From: Emcibacter nanhaiensis
GTDB lineage: Bacteria; Pseudomonadota; Alphaproteobacteria; Sphingomonadales; Emcibacteraceae
Direction of reading: 5' to 3'
Length of the DNA stretch: 64,000 nt
NCBI RefSeq assembly: GCF_006385175.1
Contig: NZ_VFIY01000015.1
Coordinates: forward strand, 64,501 to 128,500
The position numbers and the translations under genes are program-made. A model generated the notes under the pieces. It searched no databases, had not been told where the DNA came from, and saw nothing but the letters and a program-made list of their open reading frames with translations. The stretch's first letter is position 1; every line of letters begins with the position of its first letter. Below, in pieces: positions 11,931-34,877 of this stretch.

Positions 11931-13334
11931 ATGGTGAAAAATCTGGAAGAATATATGAAAGCGTTCCCCAGTTCTGTCGAAATGCTGCGCAATTCACAGG
12001 CTGGCCCCAACGCTTATCCCGGTGTCCCGGCCGAATTTACCAACTGGCGTGATGAACAGTGGGGCTGGCAGCATGCCTGCGTGCTGTTTGACCAGTCCTA
12101 CCATATGGTGGACATGCTTCTGGAAGGTCCCGATGCCCTGGCGCTGCTGACCTACCTCGGCATTAACAGCTTCAAGAATTTCCAGGTCGACCGGGCCAAG
12201 CAGTTTGTACCCTGCAGCTATGACGGTTATGTGATCGGTGATGTGATCCTGTTCTACCTGGCGGAAAACAGCTTCAGCCTGGTGGGCCGCATGCCGACCC
12301 TGAGCTGGATCCAGTTCCATGCGGAAACCGGCGACTGGGACGTCAGCATTCATATCGACCAGCGTACCGCCGCCCGCAAGGACCCATCCCGCCGCGACAA
12401 TTACCGTTTCCAGGTTCAGGGCCCCAACGCCATGAAGCTGATGGAAAAAGTGCTCGGCGAAACCCCGCCGGACCTGAAATTCTTCCATATGTGCACCATG
12501 AATATTGCCGGCAAACAGGTCCGCGCCCTGCGTCACGGCATGGCCGGTCAGCCCGGGTTCGAACTGTTCGGCCCCTGGGACGAGAAAGAACCGGTGCAGA
12601 ACGCCATCATCGAAGCCGGCAAGGAGTTCGGCCTGCGCCGCGTCGGCGGCCGCGCCTATTCTTCCAACACCTTGGAATCCGGCTGGATCCCGTCCCCGCT
12701 TCCGGCTGTCTATTCCGGTGAGAAAATGAAGCCTTACCGCGAATGGCTGACCGAGAACGACTATGAAGCCAAAGCCTCCATCGGCGGCAGCTTCGTGTCC
12801 GACAACATCGAAGATTATTACTTCACTCCCTGGGACCTGGGCTATGGCGGATTCGTCAAGTTCGACCATGACTTCATCGGCCGCGAGGCGCTGGAGAAAA
12901 TGGCCGACAATGATCATCGCCAGAAAGTGACCCTGGAGCTGCACAGCGACGATGTCATGAAGGTGATCGGCTCCCAGCTCGACAGCGGCGAAATGGAACG
13001 CGGTAAATTCTGGGAATTCCCGTCTGCCGTTTACTCCATGCATCCCATGGATAAAGTGATGAATGACAAAGGCGAAACCGTTGGCGTGTCCACCTGGGTG
13101 GGCTACAGCTCCAACGAGCGCAAGATGCTGACCCTGGCGGTGCTCAATCCCGAATATGCCAAGCCCGGCACCCAGCTGACCTTCGTCTGGGGCGAGGAAA
13201 ACGGCGGCACCACCAAGCCGACCGTAGAGCCGCACAAGCAGTTCGAAATCCGCGCCCTGGTGAGCCCGGTGCCTTACGCTGCCGTGGCCCGCGAGCAATA
13301 TGCGGACATCGAAGGCTGGCGCAAGCAAAGCTAA
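11931..13334 (+). CDS. ligM: Vanillate/3-O-methylgallate O-demethylase, tetrahydrofolate-dependent (LigM/DesA-like)
   Basis: 467-residue GcvT-fold aminomethyltransferase-like enzyme of LigM/DesA length (about 470). It transfers the aryl methyl group of vanillate or a related methoxy-acid to tetrahydrofolate, leaving protocatechuate or gallate. Family landmarks include the C-terminal TTKPTVEPHKQFEIRALVSP segment and central GRAYSSNTLESGWIPSPLPA. ATG 11931 follows GAGAAGGAAAA. It is first in a ligM-ligA-ligB operon, so the product meets the ring-cleaving enzyme directly. VanO-like sites lie upstream. Whether vanillate (LigM) or syringate (DesA) is preferred cannot be told from sequence alone. 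The methyl-recycling genes metF/ligH are absent here. Confidence 0.88.
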   Translation: MVKNLEEYMKAFPSSVEMLRNSQAGPNAYPGVPAEFTNWRDEQWGWQHACVLFDQSYHMVDMLLEGPDALALLTYLGINSFKNFQVDRAKQFVPCSYDGYVIGDVILFYLAENSFSLVGRMPTLSWIQFHAETGDWDVSIHIDQRTAARKDPSRRDNYRFQVQGPNAMKLMEKVLGETPPDLKFFHMCTMNIAGKQVRALRHGMAGQPGFELFGPWDEKEPVQNAIIEAGKEFGLRRVGGRAYSSNTLESGWIPSPLPAVYSGEKMKPYREWLTENDYEAKASIGGSFVSDNIEDYYFTPWDLGYGGFVKFDHDFIGREALEKMADNDHRQKVTLELHSDDVMKVIGSQLDSGEMERGKFWEFPSAVYSMHPMDKVMNDKGETVGVSTWVGYSSNERKMLTLAVLNPEYAKPGTQLTFVWGEENGGTTKPTVEPHKQFEIRALVSPVPYAAVAREQYADIEGWRKQS

Positions 13335-13393
13335 CTTGTTTGGAGGCGAGGCATACCCCTGTCTCGCCTCTTTCATTCTAGTGGAGACCTCCC

Positions 13394-14625
<1,232 letters not shown>

Positions 14626-15887: not shown

Positions 15888-16059
15888 GAATGCTCTCTCC
15901 TGGTTATTTCCGGCGCCTAACATGTTACTGGCCGGTAAACATCATAAAGAACTTCTCCGGCATAAAGTCAACCCCCCCCCTACAGTCAACTGGCAGAAAT
16001 GTGATTTACTGAATTTATCAGATTATGGGATTTACGCCGTACCAGGGGCGGATCATTGT

Positions 16060-16410
16060 TTACTGCTCCGACCACACCGCCAGTTCGTTGCCGTTGGGGT
16101 CCTGAAAATGAAAACGCCGGCCGCCGGGAAACTCGAAGGGCTCCTGCAGGATCTTGCCGCCGGCGTCCAGGACGGCTTGGCGGGTTTGCGCCAGGTCACC
16201 GGAGTAGAGCACCGCCAAAACCCCGGGATCGCAAACTTTGGCGCTGCCGGTACCGTTAAAGCCGCCATCGATTCCCGCGCCCTCGAAACTCAGGTAGTCG
16301 TCGCCCCATTTGGTGAAGGACCAGGCGAAGGCCGTGCTGTAAAAGTCCATGGTGGCGTCCCGGTCGGTCATGGGAAATTCAATATAGTTGATGGTATTGT
16401 GAACAGGCAT
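16060..16410 (-). CDS. VOC family (glyoxalase-like) protein
   Basis: 116-residue single VOC module with the typical beta-alpha-beta-beta-beta pattern: NYIEFPMTDRDATMDFYSTAFAWSF at the N-terminus and GGRRFHFQDPNGNELAVWSEQ at the end, where the Glu is a probable metal ligand. A start at ATG 16410 (MPVHNT) is preferred; the longer frame to 16506 gives an unrelated low-complexity leader. It stands between the thiolase gene and luxR. Function unknown; such small VOC proteins include lyases, isomerases and resistance proteins. Confidence 0.8.
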   Translation of the reverse strand: MPVHNTINYIEFPMTDRDATMDFYSTAFAWSFTKWGDDYLSFEGAGIDGGFNGTGSAKVCDPGVLAVLYSGDLAQTRQAVLDAGGKILQEPFEFPGGRRFHFQDPNGNELAVWSEQ

Positions 16411-16666
16411 GGTGCTGAATGTCTCCACGTAATGTTCTGTTTGGGGCCGCCTATTGTGCCACAGATACAGAAGCAAGTCGCAGAAAAAAGGAAGAGAGTT
16501 GAACAAGGAGCCATCGCTGAACAGCAGACCGAAATGGCATCATACGCCATTTGCCTGACCAATAACGAACAGGGTGTCTTGTCAAGGATTTCAGCTGGAG
16601 GTAGAATATTTCCTGTATAGGTTATAGTTCCCTGTGTAACAGCTTAAGGATAGTGAAAAAGAAGAT

Positions 16667-17386
16667 ATGCAGGATTTCGAAGTCGTTCAGGATTTTGTGT
16701 CTCGATCCTCCAGGGTATCATCGGAGGACGAATTAGTAGAAGCTTTTGACGGGGCGATCCAGAAACTTGGCTTCAATCATTTTTCCTGTATTTCGTTGAT
16801 GGACTATAACAATCCTGTTCCCGGCTCGCTGCTGATTACAAAGATACCGGAAAGCTGGGCGTCGAGGTATCTGGACAAAAAATATCACGAGAATGATGCG
16901 GTTCTTGATGCGGTACAGAACAGGAATATTCCTGTGGTCTGGGAAAATATGAATGTCCGCAACAGGTTCCAGAAGAATATTCTCAATGAAGCCTCGGAAT
17001 GCGGGCTGAAAAACGGGATTTCGGTGCAACTGTTCGTGCCCGGATTCATCCCGACCACTTTCAGCGTCTCCTCCGAGGAAAGTGACTTCGACCGGGACAG
17101 CTATCTTATTCTGCACCTGTTATGCGTATATTTCCATGAAGCCGTTCTGCGGCTGAGAGAGGAATCCGGCAATCCGCTGTTTGAAAAGAAGGACCTGACG
17201 GGGCGGGAAAAAGAATGTCTCTACTGGGTGGCGTCCGGGAAAAGCGATACGGACATCGCCGATATTCTCAATATCAGTAAACACACCGTCCATTTCCATA
17301 TTGAAAACGCCAAACGCAAATTCAATCTTTCCACCAGAATCCAGACGGTGGTGCGCGCCATTCTGAGCTGCTCCATAATCCCATAG
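16667..17386 (+). CDS. LuxR family quorum-sensing transcription regulator
   Basis: 239 residues. The N-terminal autoinducer-binding domain (about 20-160) has the conserved W64 and Y68 (PESWASRYLDKKYHENDAV) and D77, with Ala78 where Pro is usual. The C-terminal LuxR helix-turn-helix is LTGREKECLYWVASGKSDTDIADILNISKHTVHFHI. ATG 16667 follows AAGAAG. A 20-bp lux box and a luxI gene lie immediately downstream, so this is the cognate acyl-homoserine-lactone receptor. It probably activates luxI and the two genes behind it. Confidence 0.92.
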   Translation: MQDFEVVQDFVSRSSRVSSEDELVEAFDGAIQKLGFNHFSCISLMDYNNPVPGSLLITKIPESWASRYLDKKYHENDAVLDAVQNRNIPVVWENMNVRNRFQKNILNEASECGLKNGISVQLFVPGFIPTTFSVSSEESDFDRDSYLILHLLCVYFHEAVLRLREESGNPLFEKKDLTGREKECLYWVASGKSDTDIADILNISKHTVHFHIENAKRKFNLSTRIQTVVRAILSCSIIP

Positions 17387-17456
17387 GTAGTATTGCTGAC
17401 TTTCCACTTAATCCATGGTGGAACAAAATCTCCCCTGTTTTTTAATTCGGGCGAAA

Positions 17457-17476
17457 ACCTGCCTACCTAGGCAGGT
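17457..17476 (+). promoter_or_regulatory. lux box (LuxR binding site)
   Basis: ACCTGCCTACCTAGGCAGGT: 9-bp perfect inverted arms around CC, the same length and outer bases as the classical lux box (ACCTGT...ACAGGT). It lies 72 bp before the luxI ATG, in the right place to overlap a -35 element. Confidence 0.85.
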
Positions 17477-17548
17477 CACATCATTTCGTTTTTTTTCCAG
17501 AATTGCTCCTGCACACAACTAGTCACCACAATACGGCAGGAGGATAAG

Positions 17549-18187
17549 ATGCATGTTGATATGGTAACGCATGAAAACCGCCATCATTTTTCCGATGAAT
17601 TGCGGCTCATGTTCCGGCAGCGTTTTGACGTTTTTGAAGAGCAAATGGGTTGGCAGCTTCCCATGGCGGACTATGAAAACCGGCTCGAAATCGATGAATT
17701 CGACAGTGAAGATACGGTTTATCTTCTCATCAAGGATGACAATAATGAATTGATTGGCAGCTTGCGTCTTCTGCCGTCAACCGGTCCCCATCTGATGTCG
17801 GAACTTTTCTCCCATCTGGTGGAGGGGCCGGTGGCCCGGGCCGACGATACCTGGGAGTGCTCGCGGGTCTATGTCCTTTCCAACAAGGGAAAAGCGTCGG
17901 GGCTCAAGGCTGGTGGCGGGGCAGAACTCAGCGTCGCCATGATGGAAGCCGGACTTATGCTCGGCATCAGCAAAATCAATGTAATCGCCAATATGAATAC
18001 GCTGCCGATGATCCTGAGGTCCGGCTGGGGCACCATGCCGCTCGGCCTGCCGCAGACCGTCGGCAATGAGCAGGTCATCGCCCTCAGCATCATGATCAAT
18101 CCGGTGGGGCTGCAGGTCCTGCGTCAGCGTCGCAATGTGCCGCAGTCCATGCTTCGAATTCTACAGAAAGAAAAGGAGGTAGCGTAA
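17549..18187 (+). CDS. Acyl-homoserine-lactone synthase (LuxI family)
   Basis: 212-residue LuxI-type synthase making an N-acyl-homoserine lactone from SAM and an acyl-ACP or acyl-CoA. All hallmark residues can be placed: R25, F29, W35, D49 and D52 (IDEFD), R73 (SLRLL), F87, E103 and R106 (ECSRVYV). ATG 17549 follows GCAGGAGGAT. It is preceded by a lux box and the LuxR gene, and its stop overlaps by one base the start of a 66-residue gene, which overlaps a dioxygenase gene; the three form one operon. The acyl donor cannot be read from sequence. Confidence 0.94.
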   Translation: MHVDMVTHENRHHFSDELRLMFRQRFDVFEEQMGWQLPMADYENRLEIDEFDSEDTVYLLIKDDNNELIGSLRLLPSTGPHLMSELFSHLVEGPVARADDTWECSRVYVLSNKGKASGLKAGGGAELSVAMMEAGLMLGISKINVIANMNTLPMILRSGWGTMPLGLPQTVGNEQVIALSIMINPVGLQVLRQRRNVPQSMLRILQKEKEVA

Positions 18188-18387
18188 TGTCTACAAGTGA
18201 ACAAAAACCGTTGGGTGAACTCTTTGCACGTCTTGGATACGCGCTTCTTGAACTGTCGCCGGAGGACCGGAATATCCTGGTAGAGCATTGTGTTCAACTG
18301 GCGGGAGATATGAACAGCCAGCGTGCCCAGCTGGCCCTGAAGTATCCTGCGCTGATGGGGGGGACAAAAGATGTTTCAGACGACTAA
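18187..18387 (+). CDS. Small conserved-looking hypothetical protein in the luxI operon
   Basis: 66 residues, soluble, mostly helical by composition (GELFARLGYALLELSPEDRNILVEHC), acidic tail GTKDVSDD; no recognised domain. It starts on the last base of the luxI stop codon (TAATG) and its end overlaps the dioxygenase start by 17 bp, so it is translationally coupled to both. That tight packing is the evidence that it is a real gene. It could be a small partner or regulator of the synthase or dioxygenase; function unknown. Confidence 0.75.
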   Translation: MSTSEQKPLGELFARLGYALLELSPEDRNILVEHCVQLAGDMNSQRAQLALKYPALMGGTKDVSDD

Positions 18388-19267
18388 CGCCCTGTTGCAG
18401 GACGACGGGACGGTGTGCCCGGTCGCGGAATATACTGCCCGCCTGCGTAACGACGGTTTCCTCATCATTGAAGACCTTGTACCCGAACTGATGATCGAAC
18501 AGATCAATGAGGAACTCCGGCCCGCGTTCCGGCAGACTCCCAACAGTGAAGGCCTGTTCTGGGGATTTCAGACCAAAAGGATGGGGCGGCTTTTCACCAA
18601 GGCGCCGACCTCTCAGGGACTGGCGACCCATCCGGTGATCCTCGCGATTATGGAGGATATTCTGGGGCCCAACTGCGAAAAGTTTCAGATTAACCTGACC
18701 CAGGCCATTCGCATCGAACCGGGGGAAGAGGAGCAGGTCCTGCACCGGGATGACGAGATGTTTCCCTGGTCCCATCCGGGTAGTGAATTCATGATCAATG
18801 CCATGTGGGCGCTGGATGAATTCACAGCGGAAAACGGCGGTACGGTGGTGTGGCCGCGCAGTCACCTGAAACCGGTGCAGCGGGAGGTGCCGGCCGAGGA
18901 ACTGGTGCGGGCCGAGATGAAGCCGGGGTCTGTCCTGATCTGGCTGGGGTCAACCCAGCACGGTGGCGGCGCGAACCGGTCCCGCAAGCCGCGCAGCGGC
19001 CTCACCATCAGTTACAGTCTCGGCTGGCTGCGGCAGGCAGAAAACCAGTATCTTGCCTATCCGCCCGAAGTGGCGCGGCAGTTCCCGGAAAAACTGCAGG
19101 AACTGATCGGCTACAAGGTGCACCGCCCGAACCTGGGCTGGTATGAGGGACAGGAGCCGGACGTATTGTTCGACGGTCGCCCGGAAGCCCTTCCGGCCCT
19201 TGACCTGGTGCCCAGGGACATCGAATTGATCATTCAGGAATTTCTGGCGGGCAAGCAGGTCGCCTGA
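18371..19267 (+). CDS. Phytanoyl-CoA dioxygenase (PhyH) family Fe(II)/2-oxoglutarate oxygenase
   Basis: 298-residue non-heme iron dioxygenase. The metal triad is H125-x-D127 (VLHRDDEMF) and H197 (GSTQHGGGANRS), with R208 (KPRSGLTISYSL) placed to bind 2-oxoglutarate; the core matches the PhyH family, which hydroxylates acyl-CoAs and many small molecules. It overlaps the 66-residue gene and sits third in the lux-box-driven operon, so it should be induced with the autoinducer synthase. That placement suggests either a quorum-controlled metabolite or hydroxylation of the signal or its acyl precursor. No terminator is evident after it. Confidence 0.88.
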   Translation: MFQTTNALLQDDGTVCPVAEYTARLRNDGFLIIEDLVPELMIEQINEELRPAFRQTPNSEGLFWGFQTKRMGRLFTKAPTSQGLATHPVILAIMEDILGPNCEKFQINLTQAIRIEPGEEEQVLHRDDEMFPWSHPGSEFMINAMWALDEFTAENGGTVVWPRSHLKPVQREVPAEELVRAEMKPGSVLIWLGSTQHGGGANRSRKPRSGLTISYSLGWLRQAENQYLAYPPEVARQFPEKLQELIGYKVHRPNLGWYEGQEPDVLFDGRPEALPALDLVPRDIELIIQEFLAGKQVA

Positions 19268-19312
19268 CCCGGCAGAGACAGCTTTGGGGGAACCTTTGGG
19301 GGAATGAGGGAG

Positions 19313-19900
19313 CTATTCCCTGCGCGGATCGCTATGATCCATGTGCAGGCGGGTGGCTCCCTCATTGTCTATGGTGATGATGAAAATCCGGTCATAGTGT
19401 TGTTCGTCCAATGGGGGAAGCGCCTGACCGGAAAGTAAACCGGCAAGGAGGGGGGTCGTATTGCTGTGTCCGACCACGAGGATGGCGCCGTCCAGTTGCC
19501 GGAGTTCCCTGGCCAGGGCCGCCAGGTCGCCGGGATCATAAGTCCGGACCTTGAGTCCCGTAACCCTGGCCACAGGCCCGGCGGTCTCCAAAGTGCGCCT
19601 GAAATCAGTTGAATAGAGGGTGGACAGGTTTTTATCGGCAAAATATCCGGCATACCATTCCGCCCGCTGCCGGCCGCGGGGTGATAGCGGCGGGTTGTTT
19701 GAACCATCCGATATTTTTTCTGCATGACGGACCAGATATATGGTCTGCTCCGAGGCCGCGACGGGTCGGAAAGGCAGCGTGAACGCCAGGCAGGCCAGCA
19801 ATGAAAACAGATATCTTGTGATGCGTTGGCCCCCCAGTCTGGTAGTTTTCTGCCCCCGCCTGATGGCGGCGCGGAACGGGTTGTAGCACAAATTATTCAA
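19313..19900 (-). CDS. Histidine phosphatase family protein (SixA/phosphoglycerate-mutase-like), probably exported
   Basis: 195 residues. A basic leader and hydrophobic stretch YLFSLLACLAFTLPFRPVAAS suggest a signal peptide. The mature part starts with TIYLVRHAEK, holding the phospho-accepting His, and the second catalytic His is in ILVVGHSNTTPLLAGLL. The compact size resembles SixA-like phosphatases. The start is uncertain; a shorter form beginning closer to the signal peptide is possible. Isolated leftward gene, convergent with the quorum operon. Substrate unknown. Confidence 0.82.
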   Translation of the reverse strand: MNNLCYNPFRAAIRRGQKTTRLGGQRITRYLFSLLACLAFTLPFRPVAASEQTIYLVRHAEKISDGSNNPPLSPRGRQRAEWYAGYFADKNLSTLYSTDFRRTLETAGPVARVTGLKVRTYDPGDLAALARELRQLDGAILVVGHSNTTPLLAGLLSGQALPPLDEQHYDRIFIITIDNEGATRLHMDHSDPRRE

Positions 19901-20429
19901 CTATATTATTGTGTGTAAAACAAAAATGCTATAATTTCAGCTTTAATATTGAACGTTCAGGGCGTGCCAGCGGAAGCCGTTCAGGCTTGACCGGCTGGTT
20001 TCATCGGTAACATATACAAATTATTTCACGAAAAATAAAAATACTGTAACAGAAGTGTTGGCGGATCTTCGACGGCAAATTTCTTTTCCGGAGGTGTGTG
20101 GCTGATGGATTTTGCCGGACCAGTTGAATTAATAGTTTCTAATGTGGCTTATAACCCTGAATGTAATGGTTTCGCCCGAATCCATTAACCATTTTTAAAC
20201 GTTTTCCCTATTATTTGAGCATTGTACTAAATTTAGTATCGAAGTTTAGGTTAAGTATTATTTTCATATGCAAAATGATACATTTAAAATAATTTTATTT
20301 TAAAAGTTGTATCATTAGTGTATGGTTCCGTCGTTCTCCGAATAACTGCTCCGTTCTAAAAACAGGAGCGAGAGTAAAAAAACGGGAACTTTCGTGAGGT
20401 TGGAAACGCAAACACATAGGGAGAAAGAC
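19901..20429. promoter_or_regulatory. Long AT-rich promoter region of the first TonB receptor
   Basis: 529 bp without a credible gene. It holds a perfect 14-bp palindrome TACTAAATTTAGTA at 20225-20238 and an inverted pair, AATGATACA at 20274-20282 and TGTATCATT at 20308-20316, enclosing a very A/T-rich stretch. These are candidate operators for the receptor gene. Confidence 0.5.
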
Positions 20430-22673
20430 ATGTATAAGCGTTTACTACAGACTACAGCTCTTACAGCACTAGCTTTCGGCGCCACCGTGACGACACCGTC
20501 ATTTGCCGAAGAAGAAATGATGATGCTGGAAGAAATTACCGTGACCGCACAGCGTCGGTCCGAAAACCTGCAGGCGGTGCCTGTGGCGGTTACCGCCCTC
20601 AGCGCCAGCGCCATTGAAAAAGCCGACATCCATACACAGGATGACATTGCCACCCGTATTCCCAGCATGACCTTCTCGCCGTTCGCGCCGGGTCAGTCTG
20701 TGGTCAGCCTGCGTGGTATTTCTTCCAACGATGACGGCGCCGGTACGGAAAACTCCGTAGCCGTGTTCATGGATGACGTCTATCTGGGCCGTATTTCCAA
20801 CATGGCCTTCGAACTGTTCGATGTAGAGCGTATCGAGGTTCTGCGTGGTCCGCAGGGCACCCTTTATGGTAAGAACGCCATCGGCGGCGCCATTAACGTG
20901 GTGTCCACCAAGCCGGGCCAGGATTTCCAGGCCAAGGTAAAAGCCACGGTTGGTAACTATGACCGTCAGGACTTCCAGGGCGTTGTCTCCGGTCCGTTGA
21001 GCGACAGCCTGGCTGCCAAAGTGTCCTTCTCCTCCCGTCAGCGTGACGGCTGGGTGGAAAATATTTACACTGGCAACAAACTGAAAGATGAAAACGTACA
21101 ATCTGTACGCGGTCAGTTGCTGTGGACCGGCGAGAATACCGAAGTGACCCTGAGTGCCGACACCATGGAAATGGATCAGTCTGATATGGCCCGCATCCCG
21201 ACCCGCAGCTCTGCTGTTCCGGGTATTGCAGAAGCCCATCAGGCACTGGGAGGAGATTACAAGCACTCCACTAACCCGCAGGACGGTTACGCCCGCAAGG
21301 GCGCCAATGGCGTCAGCCTGAAGGTGGAACATGACTTCGGCGATGCCGGTACCCTGACTTCTGTCTCAGCCTACCGCGACAGTGCCAATGACTGGGAAAT
21401 GGACTCCACAGGTTCACCCATTATGAATATTGTTGACGAGATTCATGATTATACCAAACAGTATTCTCAGGAGTTCCGTTTTGCCGGTCCCATCAACGAC
21501 AGTGCCGACTTCGTGGCCGGTCTGTTCTACATGAATGAAAATACCGACCGCCAGGAAATTTTCCGCCTGGTGCGGAATGAAGACGACCGTCTGCCGAACC
21601 TGAGTGCTGACGATACTGTAGACCTTGTCGGCTCTTATCGCCAAGACAATACTACTGACAGTTTTGCAGCGTTCGCCCACGTGAACTACAACGTTACGGA
21701 GAAACTGAAACTGGGTGTCGGTGTTCGTTACACCTACGAAGAGAAGAACATCGAGAACTGGACTTCAACGTATGGCGTTTTCCCTGGCTTCATTATCTCT
21801 ACCGATTTTGGTACTGATATTGACAACAAGATTGGTGGAATTGCAGCAAGCGAATCCTGGTCTGACTTCTCTCCGAAAGTGACCCTGGACTATCAGGTTA
21901 ACGACGATGTCCTGCTTTACGCCACTGTGTCCAAAGGCTTTAAGTCCGGCGGCTTCGGTGCGGCGCCGGAGAGCGTGGCCGCGACCCAGATTCCGCTGCA
22001 GCCGGAAATTGCCTGGAACTATGAAATCGGTTCCAAGTCCGACCTGTTTGACGGCACATTGCGTCTGAACCTGGCGGCCTACTATACCGACTATTCAGAT
22101 CTGCAGTATCAGCGTTTTGGTACCCTGCTTGATGGTCAGATTACGCCGTTTGGGGTGTTCCGTACCCGTAACGCCGCGTCGGCTGAAATCTATGGTGTAG
22201 AAGCTGAATTTACCTGGGTGCCGGTGGAAAACCTGTATATTTCAGGTAACTATTCCTACATGCACACCGAAGCCGAGTTCAACTTTGATGCTTATTACAC
22301 AACACCGCCGGCAACACCGGACATTCAGACCAAGCCTCTGACCCGTGCGCCCGAGCACCGCTTCTACATTGCGGCTGATTACAGCCACGATGTATCCTGG
22401 GGCGGTCAGATGTCCTACCACATTGACTACCGTTATACCGGTGACCAGCGTGGTGACGTGGTGTCCGATGCCACCATGCAGCCGGCTTGGGGCGTGTCTG
22501 ACGCCCACGTTGACTGGACCAGCGAAGATGAACAGTGGGAAATCTCCTTCTGGGGTAAAAACATCTTCGATGAGAAGTATATCTCTCACATCTATATTGT
22601 GGGTCCGGGTGACGTTGCCGTGTACGGTGATCCCGCCATGTACGGCGCCTCCGTTACCTGGCGCTTCAACTAA
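20430..22673 (+). CDS. TonB-dependent outer-membrane receptor
   Basis: 747 residues from ATG 20430 (MYKRLLQ), which follows AGGGAGAAAG; an upstream GTG at 20394 would only add an unlikely leader. Signal peptide LTALAFGATVTTPSFAEE, TonB-box-like EEITVTAQRR, plug domain ending LFDVERIEVLRGPQGTLYGKNAIGGAINVV, then a long beta-barrel closing ...YGASVTWRFN with terminal aromatic-x-Asn. It belongs to the large sphingomonad-type receptor group that imports diverse organic substrates, not only siderophores. Amidase and racemase genes follow after a terminator. Substrate not readable. Confidence 0.93.
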   Translation: MYKRLLQTTALTALAFGATVTTPSFAEEEMMMLEEITVTAQRRSENLQAVPVAVTALSASAIEKADIHTQDDIATRIPSMTFSPFAPGQSVVSLRGISSNDDGAGTENSVAVFMDDVYLGRISNMAFELFDVERIEVLRGPQGTLYGKNAIGGAINVVSTKPGQDFQAKVKATVGNYDRQDFQGVVSGPLSDSLAAKVSFSSRQRDGWVENIYTGNKLKDENVQSVRGQLLWTGENTEVTLSADTMEMDQSDMARIPTRSSAVPGIAEAHQALGGDYKHSTNPQDGYARKGANGVSLKVEHDFGDAGTLTSVSAYRDSANDWEMDSTGSPIMNIVDEIHDYTKQYSQEFRFAGPINDSADFVAGLFYMNENTDRQEIFRLVRNEDDRLPNLSADDTVDLVGSYRQDNTTDSFAAFAHVNYNVTEKLKLGVGVRYTYEEKNIENWTSTYGVFPGFIISTDFGTDIDNKIGGIAASESWSDFSPKVTLDYQVNDDVLLYATVSKGFKSGGFGAAPESVAATQIPLQPEIAWNYEIGSKSDLFDGTLRLNLAAYYTDYSDLQYQRFGTLLDGQITPFGVFRTRNAASAEIYGVEAEFTWVPVENLYISGNYSYMHTEAEFNFDAYYTTPPATPDIQTKPLTRAPEHRFYIAADYSHDVSWGGQMSYHIDYRYTGDQRGDVVSDATMQPAWGVSDAHVDWTSEDEQWEISFWGKNIFDEKYISHIYIVGPGDVAVYGDPAMYGASVTWRFN

Positions 22674-32492: not shown

Positions 32493-34877
32493 ATGCATAC
32501 ACCATCTATGAAAACAAGAAAAATCGCCCTGGCCCTGTCCTGCAGCCTGCTGGCTTTCGGCGATCTGGCGACGGCTCAGGAAGCCGCCTCCTCAAATGAC
32601 ACCGCCTGGCTGCTGGAGGAAATCACCGTGACGGCCCGGAAAAGGGAGGAAGGGCTGCAGAGCGCGCCTATCGCCATTTCCGCCTTTACCGGCGACAGCC
32701 TCGAGTACCGCGGCGTGACGGACGTGGGCGAAATCGCCCAGTTCACCCCCAACCTCAGCTTCCAGAACAATCCCAGCTTCGGCGGTGCCAGCAACTCCGC
32801 CGCCATCTACATCCGTGGCGTCGGCCAGAAGGAATTCCTGCCGACGGTTGATCCGGGCGTGGGCCTGTATGTGGACGGCGTCTATATCGCCCGTTCCGTC
32901 GGCGGCATCCTCGACCTGATCGATGTGGAACGGGTCGAGGTGCTGAAAGGCCCGCAGGGCACCCTGTTCGGCCGCAACACCATCGGCGGCGCCATCAGCA
33001 TCACCACCAAAAAGCCGCATGACGAATTTGAAGGCAAGCTGTCCGCCACCTACGGCACAGATGACCGGATCGACCTGAAGGGTTCGCTCAATGTGCCGCT
33101 TAGCGATAATTTCTTCAGCAGCTATTCCGTCGCCTACCTGAGCCAGGATGGCTATGTGATGCGCGACGACGGCATTGACCTGGGCGATGACGATACCCTG
33201 TCCGGCCGCGCGTCCTTCCTGCTGGAAGCCAGCGACGACCTGGAAATCAGCTTCTCCATCGAGGGCAGCCGCGACCGGGAAAACGGTCCGGCCCTGACCC
33301 TGATCGGCATCAATTATGAGGGCCCGAACCCGCTGAGCCTGGCGCCGCCACCCCCGATGGCGACCCTGCATAACATCCTCGCCAACCTGGCGGCCGGCGG
33401 ACCGATGGCTCCCTGCGCCTATCCGGGATCCACCCTGAACCTGGCGGTCGACGGCTGTTATGACGACCGCTATGTCTATGATGGGGAAGAGCGCAGCTCC
33501 GGCACGGCCCCGGCCTATTCCGACACCGATTTCTGGGCGGCCAACCTGAATATCGACTGGGCGCTCAGTGACGATGTGACCCTGAAATCCATCACTGCCT
33601 ATCGTGATCTGGATGCGGAATTTTCCCGTGACGGCGACCATTCACCGTTCCGTATTTCCCAGTTCCAGGATTTCCTGACCCAGGAACAGTTTACCCAGGA
33701 ATTCCAGCTGCTCGGCACCGCCTTTGAAGACCGGCTGAACTGGATTGTCGGCCTCTATTACTTCAAGGAAAGCGGCGACAATCGCAACGAACTGGACTTT
33801 ACCGTGTCCCGGTTCCGTTCCGGCGGCGCCTATGACAACCAGAGCCTGGCCGCTTTTGCCCAGGGTACCTATGATATTACCGATCGGATTCACCTGACTG
33901 CGGGAATTCGTTATACTGACGAAACCAAAAAGTTCACCCCGGACCAGATTGTCCATGAAAACTATTTCGCCGATCTGGTGGGTACCGGACTGGCCGATGT
34001 CGAGGCGCCGTTCCTGGCCGCCGGGACACGGGTCCTGCCATATCTGGAAAAAGAGCTCAGCTATGACGAGGTCGACCCCTATCTGAACCTGTCCTGGGAT
34101 GCCACCGACGACCTGATGGTTTATGCGTCCTACTCAGAGGGCTTCAAATCCGGAGGCTTCTCCCAGCGGGTGTTCCCGCCGGTGGTGCCGCCCTTTACCG
34201 CCCCGGCCGGTACGCCCGATATCGACCTGATCCCAACCTTCGATCCGGAATTCGTCAAGGTCTATGAAGTGGGCTTCAAATACAGCGGGCTTGACGGCCG
34301 TATGCGCCTCAATGGTGCCGCCTTCTGGACCGACTATACCGATATGCAGGTCCAGGTGTTCACCAGCGTGGCGCCGATCACCAAGAACGCCGGCGCCGCC
34401 ACCATCAAGGGGGTCGAGCTTGAACTGCAGATGACTCCGGCCGACGGCTGGTTCGTGGAAGCCGGGCTCGGTTACCTGGATGCGGGCTATGACGAAATAG
34501 ATTTCACCGAAACACTGGTGGATGCAAATAATCGTCTGGAGCGGGTGTCCGACTGGTCGCTGAGCGCGGCGGTCTCCAAGGAAATTGATCTTGGCGACAG
34601 CGGCTCCCTCACTCCCCGGGTGGATTGGTCCTACCGGTCGGAGTTTGACAATGACGCTTTCAATACACCGCAGATCCATCAGGGCGGCTATCACCTGCTC
34701 AACGCCAACATCACCTGGCGCAATGCGGAGGAGACATATGCCCTCGTCGTTGGTGTGAAGAATATCACTGACGAAAAATATCTGCATACCGGCATTCTCG
34801 GCGATGCGTTCCAGTCCTATGAAGGCCTCTATGACCGGGGCCGGGAATGGTACGTCACCGGGCGCGTCAACTTCTGA
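32493..34877 (+). CDS. TonB-dependent outer-membrane receptor
   Basis: 794 residues. ATG 32493 follows CGGAG; a second ATG at 32508 is possible. Signal peptide IALALSCSLLAFGDLATAQE, TonB-box-like LLEEITVTARKREE, plug with LIDVERVEVLKGPQGTLFGRNTIGGAISITT, and a barrel ending REWYVTGRVNF. It is followed 24 bp later by a CMD-family gene, in one operon, and is divergent from a CrtI-like oxidoreductase. It probably imports the substrate of that enzyme set. Confidence 0.93.
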   Translation: MHTPSMKTRKIALALSCSLLAFGDLATAQEAASSNDTAWLLEEITVTARKREEGLQSAPIAISAFTGDSLEYRGVTDVGEIAQFTPNLSFQNNPSFGGASNSAAIYIRGVGQKEFLPTVDPGVGLYVDGVYIARSVGGILDLIDVERVEVLKGPQGTLFGRNTIGGAISITTKKPHDEFEGKLSATYGTDDRIDLKGSLNVPLSDNFFSSYSVAYLSQDGYVMRDDGIDLGDDDTLSGRASFLLEASDDLEISFSIEGSRDRENGPALTLIGINYEGPNPLSLAPPPPMATLHNILANLAAGGPMAPCAYPGSTLNLAVDGCYDDRYVYDGEERSSGTAPAYSDTDFWAANLNIDWALSDDVTLKSITAYRDLDAEFSRDGDHSPFRISQFQDFLTQEQFTQEFQLLGTAFEDRLNWIVGLYYFKESGDNRNELDFTVSRFRSGGAYDNQSLAAFAQGTYDITDRIHLTAGIRYTDETKKFTPDQIVHENYFADLVGTGLADVEAPFLAAGTRVLPYLEKELSYDEVDPYLNLSWDATDDLMVYASYSEGFKSGGFSQRVFPPVVPPFTAPAGTPDIDLIPTFDPEFVKVYEVGFKYSGLDGRMRLNGAAFWTDYTDMQVQVFTSVAPITKNAGAATIKGVELELQMTPADGWFVEAGLGYLDAGYDEIDFTETLVDANNRLERVSDWSLSAAVSKEIDLGDSGSLTPRVDWSYRSEFDNDAFNTPQIHQGGYHLLNANITWRNAEETYALVVGVKNITDEKYLHTGILGDAFQSYEGLYDRGREWYVTGRVNF

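Follow-up and report, generated by a model that had tools for sequence, protein, structure and literature searches.

A quorum-sensing operon of Emcibacter nanhaiensis with an oxygenase of a luxI-linked PhyH clade and a 66-residue putative regulator

The operon described here encodes, behind a LuxI-type acyl-homoserine-lactone (AHL) synthase, a 66-residue protein and an Fe(II)/2-oxoglutarate oxygenase of the PhyH family. We tentatively propose, at somewhat less than an even chance, that the operon amplifies itself through quorum sensing and has two outputs, namely an oxygenase that would act on a small molecule tied to LuxI and a regulator that would bind PraR in the manner of CinS. The pairing of luxI with phyH is not new, having been in print for sphingomonads and metagenomic clones from 2010 to 2016, a fact that was missed in an earlier, sequence-only reading of this DNA. 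What is new here is the luxI-linked PhyH clade and its affinity to natural-product oxygenases, the conservation of the gene trio, and the spread of the 66-residue protein together with its ties to PraR.

The features of the operon, within the window (the whole 64-kb stretch of DNA that was analyzed), are as follows.

16667-17386, + strand: luxR-type regulator, 239 aa (Pfam Autoind_bind E 4.4e-21, GerE E 6.6e-17)
17457-17476, no strand assigned: lux box, a 20-bp palindrome, ACCTGCCTACCTAGGCAGGT (shuffle and genome scan)
17538-17543, + strand: Shine-Dalgarno sequence AGGAGG of luxI (read from the sequence)
17549-18187, + strand: luxI-type acyl-homoserine-lactone synthase, 212 aa (Pfam Autoind_synth, PF00765, E 2.3e-23)
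18173-18179, + strand: Shine-Dalgarno sequence AAGGAGG of the 66-codon gene, within luxI (read from the sequence)
18187-18387, + strand: helical protein of 66 aa, uncatalogued family (luxI-linked homologues in Emcibacteraceae; two-helix prediction)
18371-19267, + strand: PhyH-family Fe(II)/2-oxoglutarate oxygenase, 298 aa, luxI-linked clade (Pfam PhyH E 3.4e-33, tree, structure)

The anatomy of the operon is certain. The genes luxR, luxI, the 66-codon gene and phyH follow one another in this order on the + strand, with luxR upstream of the lux box, and LuxI scored 83.1 bits against its Pfam model, for which the cut-off is 24. The overlaps described in the sequence-only reading were confirmed: luxI and the 66-codon gene share 1 bp (TAATG, 18185-18189), and the 66-codon gene and phyH share 17 bp (18371-18387). 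Both Shine-Dalgarno sequences are of the consensus type. The co-expression of the oxygenase and the small protein with the synthase, as postulated in that reading, is supported by this packing. An Rfam scan of 16000-20500 at gathering thresholds gave no match.

The 20-bp lux box reported to precede luxI is also present, with 9 of its 10 position pairs palindromic. When up to 3 mismatches were allowed, it had no match in 100 dinucleotide shuffles of the 64-kb window and was unique across the 3.96-Mb genome; since this site is the sole one, lux boxes gave no view of the wider quorum-sensing regulon at this threshold. Of 145 luxI genes, 30 had an equally large palindrome (8 or more of 9 pairs) at a similar distance on their 5′ side, as compared with 4 expected from base shuffles, in a set that counts the window's own lux box twice.

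Elsewhere in the window, the + strand of 11931-14622 carries a gene for a GCV_T-domain protein followed by those for the two subunits, LigA and LigB, of a dioxygenase that opens aromatic rings. Two large ORFs (20394-22673 and 32493-34877) resemble, by eye, TonB-dependent receptors, and several ORFs around them resemble, again by eye, short-chain dehydrogenases, which gives this part a catabolic look.

The relationship between the oxygenase and LuxI was examined in named genomes, one per species, with luxI-linked PhyHs as the query, a choice that favors linked homologues. Among the best 80 loci, which were kept, luxI lay directly upstream of phyH on the same strand in most. A maximum-likelihood tree was built from 128 PhyHs. 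On it, luxI linkage required 6 label changes, as compared with 38.5 in shuffles, and a single clade (support 96/94) held 83 rows, of which 78 had phyH directly behind luxI; three luxI-linked rows fell outside it. The PhyH of the window belongs to a starred sub-branch of this clade, together with those of two other genomes of the family (G093 and G069). In the unlinked rows of the clade, phyH comes after luxI, a small ORF and then a P450 gene (L112), luxI is divergent (L098), luxI and a small ORF lie farther upstream (L109), phyH adjoins an IS element and, as judged by eye, an apparent luxI remnant (L092), or the contig ends (L154). Pairwise-identity matrices of the 83 operons correlated with an r of 0.905 for PhyH and LuxI, 0.851 for PhyH and LuxR and 0.868 for LuxI and LuxR; by this measure PhyH appears to track LuxI as closely as LuxR does, a correlation that may also arise if the operon is inherited as a unit. 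The partnership of oxygenase and LuxI that the earlier reading had implied is, by linkage and correlation alike, a stable one. Because the genes 3′ of phyH differ from locus to locus, leaving LuxI and LuxR as the sole partners kept across loci, we regard these two as the constant partner of the oxygenase. That the clade is dedicated to LuxI is well supported.

The survey yielded further observations on the mobility and variety of such loci. Pairs of luxI and phyH also occur on conjugative plasmids from Sphingobium, Novosphingobium and Variovorax (L089, L090 and L091), with transfer genes adjoining in L089 and L090. A second type of luxI-linked small ORF is followed by a cytochrome P450 gene in L029, L226 and L112 (the P450 identity having been Pfam-tested for L112 only), so that an oxygenase recurs behind luxI; a PraR-like gene lies near this pair in L029 and L226, and phyH lies behind the P450 gene in L112.

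The iron triad H125-x-D127...H197, the intactness of which had been recognized from the letters, is accompanied by R208, the 2-oxoglutarate-binding arginine, and these residues are invariant in all 85 luxI-linked PhyHs (85/85). Human phytanoyl-CoA hydroxylase PHYH (2A1X) has the same type of iron site and belongs to the same Pfam family, and the sequence-only reading had started from the premise that PhyH enzymes hydroxylate acyl-CoAs. This premise found no support. When a profile of 32 homologues was compared with solved structures, the best matches were AndA (5.8e-34), SptF (2.6e-31), AsqJ (2.6e-23) and FtmOx1 (~1e-21), with 120.6 bits for the natural-product oxygenases versus 28.9 bits (E 5.4e-6) for human PHYH. 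The ranking was similar in a single-sequence phmmer search (AndA, E 4e-25), in which human PHYH was not among the matches listed. The predicted structure of PhyH (pLDDT 87) aligned with those of its relatives at Z 28-30 (SptF 30.2, AndA 29.8, FtmOx1 29.1); the absence of human PHYH from the 50 structural matches listed carries no weight by itself. AndA, SptF, TlxJ, FtmOx1, AsqJ and EasH, which match best by both sequence and structure at 20-29% identity, come from fungal biosynthetic clusters and have bulky substrates. The usual substrates of AndA, SptF, FtmOx1 and AsqJ are free small molecules, and several of the matched structure entries contain such ligands. By its profile and its predicted fold, then, the PhyH of the window groups with natural-product-tailoring oxygenases and not near the acyl-CoA-hydroxylating human enzyme. 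Because its closest solved relatives tailor free natural products and the match to human PHYH is far weaker, the rationale for an acyl-CoA substrate is weakened, and use of acyl-CoA is not to be assumed. A free small molecule such as a lactone is the likelier substrate, and since LuxI and LuxR alone persist across loci, an AHL is the first candidate.

One alternative hypothesis is that the oxygenase is unrelated to the signal, serving another metabolite under quorum control and residing in the operon only so that it is switched together with luxI. PhyH relatives do occur away from luxI (47 of the 128 tree rows), and three further PhyH genes are present elsewhere in this genome. LuxI alone, moreover, gives ordinary AHLs: according to the cited passages of PMC5012321, NovI homologues of phyH-bearing Novosphingobium, placed alone in Agrobacterium, produced unsubstituted and hydroxy C8-C12 AHLs, and the AHLs seen in the Novosphingobium wild type were largely accounted for. 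These results also weigh against the AHL as the substrate of PhyH, and they leave the hydroxylated signal suggested in the sequence-only reading hypothetical. The assay described in those passages, however, was confined to 20 AHL signals for which it relied on standards, and an unexpected product would be invisible to it. For Croceicoccus, E. coli carrying luxI is described in the cited part of PMC7432010 as giving extracts that resembled wild-type extracts, an unknown AHL included, a result that is relevant only if the strain carries phyH. Against a role in another metabolite, however, members of the linked clade keep their place at luxI in many families while the other neighbors change, and there is no biosynthetic partner common to all loci. 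We consider this explanation somewhat unlikely.

The 66-residue protein was called unknown in the sequence-only reading, and this was borne out by the searches: there was no Pfam match at or near the curated threshold and no significant match in NCBIfam or PHROGs, and a search of solved structures with the family gave chance-level matches only. When plasmids were searched by tblastn with this protein and with another small ORF linked to luxI, nothing useful emerged. The 66-codon gene is a real one, because seven sequences share the core LxxRxGYALxxLxxxxRxxLV at the protein level. The protein is predicted, with modest confidence (pLDDT 70.6), to form a hairpin of two helices (residues 8-22 and 25-52). 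The earlier reading had staked its proposal on conservation of the trio in relatives; in a survey of 32 Emcibacteraceae genomes with 16 luxI loci, the order luxI-66-codon gene-phyH was found in six genomes (G000, which is the window's own, G069, G093, G057, G032 and G048). Within the family, the luxI-phyH locus of G027 lacks the small gene, and the gene lies behind luxI without phyH in three loci (G015, G093 and G027). The luxI-linked members in Emcibacteraceae numbered nine, and the small protein of a further record of this family (L104) is the same as that of G057. Distant homologues occur without luxI, one directly 3′ of a PAS-like ORF (L182) and the other 0.2 kb behind a praR-type gene (L195).

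This distribution bears on the possibility that the small protein assists LuxI or PhyH, as an accessory subunit or chaperone, and is not a regulator. Its translational coupling to both neighbors would fit such a role, as would its occurrence in 6 of the 7 luxI-phyH loci of the family. It is, however, unlikely to be a PhyH subunit, because the family is also found behind luxI without phyH and outside luxI loci altogether, after the PAS-like ORF and near the praR-type gene; furthermore, in most of the sphingomonad pairs luxI and phyH overlap or lie almost end to end, leaving no room for a 66-codon gene. We, therefore, judge the subunit or chaperone hypothesis improbable. The presence of the gene after luxI in the three loci that have no phyH is better explained by a regulator, an explanation that had been overlooked in the sequence-only reading.

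Small luxI-linked regulators have been described in other bacteria. CinS of Rhizobium leguminosarum is a small protein that is cotranscribed with a luxI homologue and binds PraR as an anti-repressor (PMC4149787, in the passages cited), and MmaP of Methylobacterium fujisawaense, a protein of 59 residues whose gene lies directly 3′ of luxI and is cotranscribed with it, also binds PraR (PMC10790750, in the passages cited). A PraR orthologue is present in the window's genome (G000:C10:35359-35739), where the ORF on its 5′ side resembles, on reading, an apolipoprotein N-acyltransferase. G032 has a cluster that opens with a PraR paralogue and continues with luxR, luxI, a homologue of the 66-codon gene and phyH. 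By plain tally, PraR-like genes also occur in the luxI or phyH loci L029, L226, L163, L111, L245, L255 and L257. A 64-aa ORF behind luxI in L252 matched a profile of the PraR C-terminus (E 9e-4, among 93 ORFs), and the 66-residue family itself resembled the PraR C-terminus weakly (hhalign E 0.03, a value equalled in 4-5 of 200 column shuffles). These ties amount to a lead: it is plausible that the 66-residue protein, probably a regulator of the CinS/MmaP kind, works like CinS, by an analogy in which CinS and MmaP were compared by description and not by sequence. Mimicry of PraR by the 66-residue protein is possible.

Under the two-output proposal, LuxI would, as its sequence indicates, make an AHL, and LuxR together with the AHL would occupy the lux box, so that luxI, the 66-codon gene and phyH are transcribed more strongly, as the anatomy and the LuxR/LuxI paradigm suggest. 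Translation of the three genes would be coupled through their overlaps. The substrate oxidized by PhyH would be a free small molecule linked to LuxI, the AHL being the most probable one, and the product a modified signal; the two-helix protein, acting by analogy with CinS and MmaP, would bind a PraR-type regulator so that PraR-controlled genes follow cell density. We infer the AHL substrate and the antagonism of PraR separately, and would give each about an even chance or lower. In a more specific and unlikely version, one transcript would encode the signal maker, a modifier that produces an oxygenase-modified homoserine lactone, and a mimic of the PraR C-terminal helices that pulls PraR off its targets. 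We know of no report of oxygenase-modified homoserine lactones as a signal class. If this version is true, then a single transcript holds a signal maker, a signal modifier and a repressor antagonist.

Alternatively, the oxygenase might inactivate or trim the AHL, which would amount to negative feedback rather than tailoring to the true signal. The linkage to luxI is consistent with such a role, an enzyme induced along with the synthase would be apt for shutting the signal off again, and a P450 gene occupies a comparable slot in L029, L226 and L112 (by Pfam for L112 only). The tests that were run, however, give no pointer to inactivation over activation, and we think this scenario quite improbable.

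Lasso-peptide genes are frequent neighbors of luxI-phyH. A lasso-type asparagine synthetase cyclase gene was found on the same strand in 27 of the 53 linked-clade loci with enough downstream sequence, and 23 of the 53 carry a GntR gene, which overlaps phyH in many lasso loci; lasso-type precursors and a B protein (PF13471) are present in these loci, and an S9 peptidase in several. The clusters lie 0.5-3.5 kb 3′ of phyH in L095 (annotated as a lasso cluster), L106, L113, L122, L123, L127, L131, L149, L174 and others. A second luxR-luxI pair in the window's genome (L061, G000:C14:82000-88000) has neither phyH nor the small gene; behind it come GntR-like ORFs and the gene for a B protein of lasso type. 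Despite these associations, modification of a lasso peptide is a weak and very unlikely explanation for PhyH, given that 26 of the 53 loci lack an adjacent cyclase gene, 4 of the 7 family genomes with luxI-phyH (draft genomes) have no PF13471 match, and the lasso cluster of this genome adjoins the luxI that lacks phyH. The control of lasso clusters by quorum sensing merits attention in its own right.

The literature has noted phyH beside luxI since 2010 and has asked for its reaction. The clones of Hao et al. (2010), as related in the Gan papers, were the source of the idea that phyH is quorum-regulated (PMC3704786). Gan (2013) found phyH adjoining 4 of 5 novI genes, and likewise in a fosmid metagenomic clone and in further sphingomonads (PMC3704786); the pairing was extended in Gan (2015, PMC4288048) and Gan (2016, PMC5012321), where the reaction of PhyH is stated as unknown. 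We found no description of the intervening 66-codon gene in the literature on luxI-phyH pairs. The question of the reaction can now be narrowed to a specialized LuxI partner that appears akin to oxygenases of free natural products, with AHLs as the first candidates, and the 66-residue protein suggests a set of regulators, linked to luxI and absent from the catalogues, with PraR as a concrete candidate partner.

Compared with known systems, the operon combines elements of two kinds. As in cinI-cinS, a small-protein gene accompanies luxI and a PraR orthologue is encoded in the genome (PMC4149787, in the passages cited); as in mmaI-mmaP, the small gene is directly behind luxI, encoding 66 residues with a 1-bp overlap in the window and 59 residues in Methylobacterium (PMC10790750, in the passages cited). 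Unlike the window, neither system has an oxygenase gene mentioned in the cited passages of these two papers. With novR-novI-phyH of Sphingomonadaceae and the Hao clones, in contrast, the window shares the order and orientation of luxR, luxI and phyH, and the phyH genes belong to the same clade; it differs from them in that a 66-codon gene is added between luxI and phyH, overlapping both, and in that its PhyH sits on a deep branch of the clade.
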